NCBI GenBank assembly: GCA_026168455.1
Contig: CM047427.1
Location: forward strand, 40,461,346-40,525,345
DNA length: 64,000 nt
Direction of reading: 5' to 3'
From: Theocolax elegans
Lineage: Eukaryota; Arthropoda; Insecta; Hymenoptera; Cerocephalidae
Below are positions 18,178-18,534 of the stretch, one piece after another; the first letter of the stretch is position 1; each line of letters opens with the position of its first letter. The notes beneath the pieces are model-generated. The model ran no database searches. It had not been told where the DNA came from and saw only the letters and a list, made by a program, of their open reading frames with translations. The translations under genes were made by a program, and so were the position numbers.

Positions 18178-18534
18178 TCTGGGGTAGATTAGAAACAAAT
18201 ACAGTGTCTCTTCTCATCCCAGAACGATTTCTGGATATTTTAATGGAATAAGAGGTTGGGTAGAGGTTCGAACGAATCCAGCGTTCGGCCTCGCCCAGTA
18301 AACTCTTCGGTGAATGTATATTAGAAAAAATCAGGTAGATGTTAGAATAAATCTAGTATTCCACATCATCTGAGTATTTTTCTATGGAAACAGGAAAGTT
18401 TTAATGGTTCGGGTAGAAGACAAAGCGAATCTAGCGCTCCTTTTCGTCCGAATGTATTCCAAGGAATTGGCTTTAAATGATAAAAGGACTTGGGTAAAAA
18501 TTGGAATGATTCCAGCATTCCATCTTATCCAAGT
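18178..18534. ncRNA. Five tandem ~77-nt structured hairpin repeats with covariation
   Basis: Hairpin units begin at 18178, 18256, 18331, 18408 and 18488. Each has an outer stem followed by a GGGTAGA-like strand, a middle stem, then an inner stem capped by a conserved 7-nt loop: AATACAG, AATCCAG, AATCTAG, AATCTAG and ATTCCAG. The stems change sequence but keep pairing. Inner stems are ACA/TGT, CGAACG/CGTTCG, GAATA/TATTC, AGCG/CGCT and GGAATG/CATTCC. Outer stems are TCTGGG/CCCAGA, TGGG/CCCA, TCAG/CTGA, TTCGG/CCGAA and ACTTGG/CCAAGT. Compensatory change with a constant loop is what selection on RNA structure produces. I know no family that matches. Strand is undecided: a G-U pair in unit 4 favours plus, an A-C mismatch in unit 1 favours minus. 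The array lies just outside the proposed LTR. Confidence 0.6.

Follow-up and report, generated by a model that had tools for sequence, protein, structure and literature searches.

The window (i.e., the whole 64,000-nucleotide stretch of the Theocolax elegans genome analysed here) contains, at positions 18178-18534, an array of five hairpins of 46-47 nt each that share one common geometry. This array is part of the solo long terminal repeat (LTR) of a multicopy Ty3/Gypsy retrotransposon: The LTR is 1218 bp long, lies on the minus strand (18097..19314), reads TGTGACGGGC...GCCCGTTACA on that strand, has ends common to the copies in the genome, and is flanked by the target-site duplication GCAC (left copy 18093..18096, right copy 19315..19318). 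The initial annotation had proposed a candidate new structured RNA, to be given up if the array proved to be a known repeat with incidental structure. The structure is real and the sequence is a repeat, but the array belongs to a multicopy LTR and is not a stand-alone structured RNA or free-standing RNA gene; its structure does not look incidental.

The array has at least 40 matches in its own genome, the window included, at 93-100% identity (40 scored of 195 candidates). With a longer query, 38 of the 40 matches listed start only at 18074-18099, the remaining two being the window itself and a near-identical contig, and in 20 copies taken with their flanks the shared stretch begins at 18095-18097 (at 18074 in one copy) and, where complete, ends at about 19314 in window numbering. 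The LTR ends in these copies are TGTAACGGGC and GCCCGTCACA. The LTRs are direct, begin with TG and end with CA on the sense strand (TGTGACGGGC...GTTACA), and are bounded by short target duplications, which are 4 bp long in all five other solo copies with both ends visible (ATGC, GCCT, AACT, ATAG and GCCT). Five copies have one shared interior sequence to the right of the LTR end, and six have another to the left. The purine tract AAAGGGGGGTGA precedes the LTR in four of five copies and differs by one base in the fifth (on the minus strand, the tract before the LTR start is AAATTTAAAGGGGGGTGA, with L138 one base off), and a stretch resembling a primer-binding site (PBS), TTGGCGATCC, follows the LTR in five of six copies, the sixth having TCGGCGATCC (on the minus strand, the PBS-like stretch after the LTR end is TAAAAATTGGCGATCC, exact in four of six copies, with one extra A in L131 and one base changed in L133). 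The family has, in other words, a PBS after its 5' LTR and a polypurine tract before its 3' LTR. In one copy, L143, LTR pieces flank an interior of about 5.9 kb, in which Pfam recognizes RVP, RVT_1, RNase H, H2C2 and rve; the coding strand is opposite to the array's plus strand, and the domain order (protease - RT - RNase H - integrase) is that of Ty3/Gypsy elements. The LTR in the window is a relic, and copies with a coding interior occur elsewhere in the same genome: The window copy consists of the solo LTR only, and the Gypsy genes at 11473-15559 are part of a different element beside it.

This neighbouring Gypsy element (11473-15559, minus strand) has RT, protease-like and gag-like frames with frame breaks; its protease is just below the Pfam cut-off and its gag-like frames are without a Pfam match. 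The element appears to occupy 11473-18096 (minus strand), next to or around the solo LTR, with a PBS-like TGGCGCCCAACG near 17598-17611, a 3' part cut off at a Helitron-like stretch near 11440, and a large imperfect inverted repeat of 28-nt tandem units (16060-17018) between its PBS and gag-like frames. That the array sits in the LTR of this minus-strand Gypsy (11473-17611) was considered and rejected, copies elsewhere beginning at about 18097. The window also contains inverted repeats of 99% identity at 19762-21620, whose arms measure 585 and 104 nt and which may represent a foldback DNA transposon; a row of three diverged copies of non-LTR retrotransposons at 22104-35248 (minus strand; 68-77% alike); and a tRNA gene or tRNA-like copy at 3822-3894 (minus strand; Rfam 38.5 bits). 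An 11-kb contig (G000:C213) has stretches 99-100% identical to window positions 17560-18830, and is either a recent duplication or an assembly double.

Hairpin geometry and variation among copies

In a register of 47 columns on the plus strand, each unit is built of an 8-bp outer stem, a bulged A and a 5-bp middle stem, followed by a 1-nt bulge (missing from unit 1), a 6-bp inner stem and a 7-nt loop. The units lie at 18178-18223, 18254-18300, 18329-18375, 18407-18453 and 18488-18534, with starts spaced by 76, 75, 78 and 81 nt (~77 nt). All five hairpins described in the initial annotation are present at 18178..18534; its starts for units 1 and 5 (18178 and 18488) are right, and the other three are corrected from 18256, 18331 and 18408 to 18254, 18329 and 18407. 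The loop of unit 1 is AATACAG in the window, as in 2 of 48 sequences (AATCCAG in 40 of 48); that of unit 2 is AATCCAG; that of unit 3 is AATCTAG, again a form of 2 of 48 sequences (AATCCAG in 45 of 48); that of unit 4 is AATCTAG (43 of 48); and that of unit 5 is ATTCCAG (45 of 48). The bulged A is kept in 45-48 of the 48 sequences in each unit. Units are 54-66% identical to one another over all columns, and 47-63% in the stems alone, and all fit one register, which bears out the earlier description of low identity combined with the same hairpin. The internal strand given there as GGGTAGA-type is exact in three of five units, the other two being without the exact word, and TTTTAATGG, in the linkers said there to share words, occurs exactly twice near the array (18238 and 18399) and not in every linker.

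Across the five units, 13 of 19 pairs have changes on both sides, compared with a shuffle mean of 5.7 (reached in none of 500 shuffles), and standard pairs make up 90.5% of the 95 pair cells on the plus strand (shuffle mean 73.8%, the observed value never being reached in 500); when stem partners are slid, pairing falls to 38-43%. A covariance model (R1), of the kind first suggested with the annotation, was built from units 2-5 with unit 1 left out. It recovers unit 1 independently at E 5.6e-5 in a search of the whole window, where its other matches are unit 5 read backwards (E 0.024) and a remainder at E 0.3 or worse. A descriptor scan requiring at least 15 of 19 pairs and at least 6 of 7 loop positions finds, on both strands of the window, these five units and nothing else; the same descriptor gives two matches in total in 12 order-1 Markov sequences (64 kb, one strand each). 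On either strand, none of 100 dinucleotide shuffles matches the fold of 18160-18560 (plus strand z -5.3, minus strand z -4.1). Folded singly with their flanks, units 1, 2, 3 and 5 reach z -2.0 to -3.5, and unit 4 is not beyond shuffles (z -0.04 on the plus strand, -0.5 on the minus strand). If the extended outer stems are counted, the predicted fold has 21 pairs in unit 2 and 24 in unit 3.

A coding repeat on the plus strand was tried as an explanation and rejected: The 72-aa frame at 18374-18592 has no Pfam match at E <= 1, and stops, as judged by eye, end units 2 and 3 in the shared frame. The 91-aa frame at 18550-18825 (minus strand) has no Pfam match and no relative at E <= 0.01 (one candidate scored). 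In the copy L140 (~5490-5848), a 273-aa open frame runs across units 4 and 5 on the array strand, probably incidentally.

Because the 47 copies of a first set (48 sequences with the window) had been found by similarity to queries that contain the array, we took a second set of 20 further copies, found with 18611-18830 alone, 13 of which span 329 or more of the 357 array columns. A variant found in at least two copies is likely, in most cases, to have arisen in the mobile lineage. Per column, such shared variants number 0.094 in the units, 0.163 in the linkers, and 0.173 and 0.289 in the flanks of the first set, and 0.073, 0.122, and 0.136 and 0.224, respectively, in the second, i.e., they are about 40% sparser in hairpins than in linkers in both. 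The permutation P for units versus linkers and flanks is 0.002 in the first set and 0.006 in the second; for units versus linkers alone, the values (0.056 and 0.11) are only suggestive. Private variants, confined to a single copy, show no deficit in units relative to linkers. In the 48 sequences, the commonest state of the 95 unit pairs on the plus strand is Watson-Crick in 79, G-U in 9, A-C in 3 and other in 4. Single changes from Watson-Crick pairs lead to G-U 47 times, to A-C 41 times and to other mismatches 27 times, and the near-equality of G-U and A-C is the balance expected of neutral decay after insertion. The R1 model gives 258 matches in the first set, which correspond to five units per sequence (47 copies and the window), with the rest in six interior stretches. 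In the second set it finds five units in 10 of 20 copies and 0-4 in the other 10 (several copies are incomplete, with stretches cut), and no copy has more than five.

Related families and their hairpins

A segment of pol used as a query retrieved families at 100 down to 62% identity (79 matches, 77 of 12833 candidates scored), and six upstream regions of these relatives were examined. Two of the six represent a single sister family; they are 82 and 81% identical to the query in the pol segment and 98% to each other. In this family R1 finds four hairpins in the same orientation, at E 2e-7, 7e-4, 1.5e-3 and 7e-3 (11.4 kb searched); when the whole window is included in the search, the values are 1.2e-6, 0.004, 0.009 and 0.042, and the backward reading of unit 5 (E 0.025) scores between the two weakest sister hairpins. 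The first sister hairpin lies 83 nt from the LTR edge, as against 81 nt in the window family. A plain alignment of the two arrays is barely above shuffled sequence (0.78 vs. 0.72-0.74), and stem identity between the two families (56%) is much the same as that among the units of the first family (54%). The nine units together have 32 both-side cells, compared with about 10.6 after shuffling (reached in 0 of 2000 shuffles), and the sister set alone, whose hairpins were chosen by R1 itself, has 7 compared with 3.1 (reached in 17 of 2000). By eye, the internal loop GGAUGA/UCUWCCC (sense strand, with variants) is common to both families, and the apical loop is partly so, with AATC in two of four sister loops.

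Because the stems change on both sides, shared variants are fewer in the hairpins, and the hairpins recur in a sister family, the structure of the array looks selected. The original argument for selection on structure, as opposed to simple repetition, is thereby supported by covariation, by variants among copies and by the sister family alike. The sense-strand core of the loops, CURG, is self-complementary in 55 of 61, 59 of 61, 63 of 64, 57 of 62 and 61 of 65 sequences for the five units, and kissing loops formed through it are possible in this family. They were considered and rejected: The sister loops are without the core, and chance alone often produces such a 4-mer.

In the other four regions, which are 63-66% identical in pol, R1 finds nothing at E <= 2. 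A fold of two of the loci, followed by a motif search, revealed hairpins upstream of the PBS with the constant loop GCADKGCGCG and differing stems: four in L196, three in L199 (the same family as L196 by stems and PBS) and two in L197. At L198, two hairpins with the related loop GCC(C)AATGYGYG lie upstream of the PBS. Arms pair with their own partners at 6.9 of 8 positions on average, compared with 2.8 when partners are exchanged (9 hairpins, not all independent, and 64 exchanges); 8 of the 64 exchanges reach at least 7, and two of the nine hairpins reach only 4. In L196 and L197, the fold of the leader nearest the PBS is little beyond shuffles (z -1.2 and -1.8), and a longer L196 stretch (z -4.6) and L198 (z -3.6) fold better than shuffles. 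More distant families have another tandem hairpin class at the place that corresponds to the array. It was noticed after the fact and in few loci, and we regard it as a strong lead. The region upstream in L196 also has a tRNA match in Rfam at 24.4 bits, below the cut-off of 29.

Position in the element RNA and possible functions

On the sense strand, the array comprises nt 781-1137 of the 1218-nt LTR and stops 81 nt short of its edge. A TATA box-like TATAAA (18825..18830, minus strand) is present in at least 41 of 45 sequences read, and an AATAAA polyadenylation-like signal (18602..18607, minus strand) in at least 40 of 48. If these have the roles that their sequences suggest, R would extend from about 18800 to 18585, beginning some 25-30 nt downstream of TATAAA. 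Because the array is downstream of AATAAA, and given the positions of TATA, AATAAA, PBS and polypurine tract, it probably belongs to U5, which would place it in the 5' leader of the full-length element RNA, between R and the PBS. A tRNA-like stretch (19198..19265, minus strand), in which a box A-like TAGCTTAAGCGG and a box B-like GAGTTCAAGCC can be seen by eye, lies close to the LTR's 5' end; the stretch has few shared variants among copies, and is called neither by ARAGORN (window and 26 copies) nor by Rfam (window).

We propose, with about an even chance of being right, that the array is a cis-acting U5 element that acts as a multivalent Gag-binding or packaging signal in the 5' leader. Within the leader RNA, the array would follow R and adjoin the PBS; selection on the mobile lineage would keep the fold and the asymmetric internal loop while the stem sequences drift, and would likewise keep the apical loop within a family. 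Repeated hairpins could form a multivalent protein-binding site, for which the first candidate is the element's own Gag, and Gag binding might then mark the full-length RNA for packaging. Several features together suggest such a multivalent site with a fast-changing partner: proximity to the PBS, repetition of the unit, apical and internal loops that stay constant, stems that are free to vary, and a loop class that differs between families. The folded molecule is presumably RNA rather than DNA. Packaging, taken alone, is the most likely function, though it falls well short of an even chance. A broader version, by which a Ty3/Gypsy lineage has a standing U5 tandem hairpin array as its packaging signal and exchanges the loop class along with its Gag (AATCYAG vs. 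GCADKGCGCG), strikes us as speculative and unlikely; if true, one genome holds several mutually distinct packaging codes.

The leader hairpins may instead act in translation, in the nuclear export of unspliced RNA or in the control of polyadenylation, by binding a host protein and not Gag. This is possible though doubtful. In its favour, the array follows AATAAA directly and precedes the PBS, and multivalent hairpins are characteristic of platforms for host proteins (e.g., the iron-responsive elements of the transferrin receptor). Against it, loop class differs between related families, a better fit to a co-evolving element protein. The folded molecule might also be DNA, either a cruciform of the LTR or the minus-strand strong-stop cDNA (the antisense R-U5 copy primed at the PBS), and might pause reverse transcription or aid strand transfer. 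In a comparison of the window and 11 copies picked from the 47, the antisense strand has the better fold in all 12 sequences of the window family (mean z -5.4 vs. -3.5), whose antisense lean is also visible in the 9 G-U vs. 3 A-C commonest states on that strand, and reverse transcription would reach the array soon after leaving the PBS. The better antisense fold would fit an antisense RNA as well as strong-stop DNA. However, the sister family leans the opposite way, with the better z on the sense strand (z -3.5 and -5.0), such that the strand bias is not common to both families, and conserved bulges and internal loops are more usual for protein-RNA recognition; we judge a DNA structure quite unlikely.

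If palindromes were kept by mutation, with template switching correcting imperfect ones, no function would be needed, and compensatory changes can arise in this way in DNA palindromes. But such correction would erase the bulges and the internal loop (the bulged A is present in 45-48 of 48 sequences of every unit) and would not spare the 7-nt loop, and it predicts neither fewer shared variants in the units nor recurrence in the sister family, all of which render it very unlikely. It is more improbable still that the array is a source of small RNAs, i.e., an hpRNA-type endo-siRNA or miRNA cluster, perhaps from antisense transcripts. Tandem hairpin RNAs are known in Drosophila (hp-CG4068), and the 21 and 24 pairs predicted for the extended units 2 and 3 would suit such a source; what is conserved between units, however, is the loop and the bulges and not a 21-23 nt arm, and the stems are 47-63% identical, with regular bulges.

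To our knowledge, little is known about how insect Ty3/Gypsy elements mark their own RNA. A repeated, covarying hairpin beside the PBS, accompanied in the same genome by a sister version and, in related families, by a second class of loop, offers a concrete candidate for such marking. Screens for structured RNAs in eukaryotic genomes will meet LTR leader elements that resemble new ncRNA families.

Comparison with known systems

In agreement with the remark in the initial annotation that no known RNA family has such a loop, no Rfam model matches the array: The single match at E <= 5 over 17600-19320 is weak and outside the array, the single match at E <= 0.5 in 20 copies is outside the LTR, and the two matches at E <= 1 in five related loci are below cut-offs and outside the hairpins. 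An iron-responsive element is defined by a CAGUGN loop with a bulged C 5 bp below, and the commonest loops in the 48 sequences are not CAGUGN. The tandem iron-responsive elements of the transferrin receptor resemble the array in having five hairpins whose loop and bulge are constant and whose stems vary, but they occur in a cellular mRNA with CAGUGN, whereas the array occurs in a retrotransposon LTR with AATCYAG or its complement. The hr repeats of baculoviruses are also tandem units, of ~70 bp, around an imperfect palindrome; they conserve the sequence of their arms, whereas the arms of the array covary.

Searches of other collections returned little that resembles the array. A pattern matched 107 stretches in viral_contigs, and R1, applied to 80 of these, gave one partial match at E 3; in prokaryote genomes there were three pattern matches and one lone weak fold (19.4 bits, E 0.0027), which we take as chance. 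The RT proteins of the neighbouring Gypsy element and of its closest match have no relative in viral_contigs, and the phage collection contains nothing similar to 17600-18900. Within the same genome, two patterns, excluding the family's own units, gave one match (not a hairpin, by eye) and none.

Helenus/TRIMp3 elements, which have tRNA-like LTRs and are found in chalcid wasps among others, share with the window family a tRNA-like LTR stretch, 4-bp target duplications and a link to Gypsy (PMC10886601), and a coding Gypsy family with a tRNA-like LTR recalls these wasp TRIMs. Helenus elements are short and non-coding (PMC10886601), whereas the window family has a 1218-bp LTR and a coding interior; in the text on Helenus, 'hairpin' is absent and 'stem-loop' occurs once (PMC10886601).

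The literature covered, which is partial, yielded no description of a tandem hairpin array in an LTR retrotransposon. The packaging and dimerization hairpins of retroviral and retrotransposon leaders, among them the Ty1 TIPIRT domain (PMC5454406), are, like the array, structured and near the PBS. Unlike these known leader hairpins, the array consists of five versions of a single hairpin, whose loop stays constant while the stems have drifted to ~54% identity. LTR elements with structured leaders are known, and, as far as our searches reach, a five-fold covarying array in a probable U5, with a change of loop class between families, is new.
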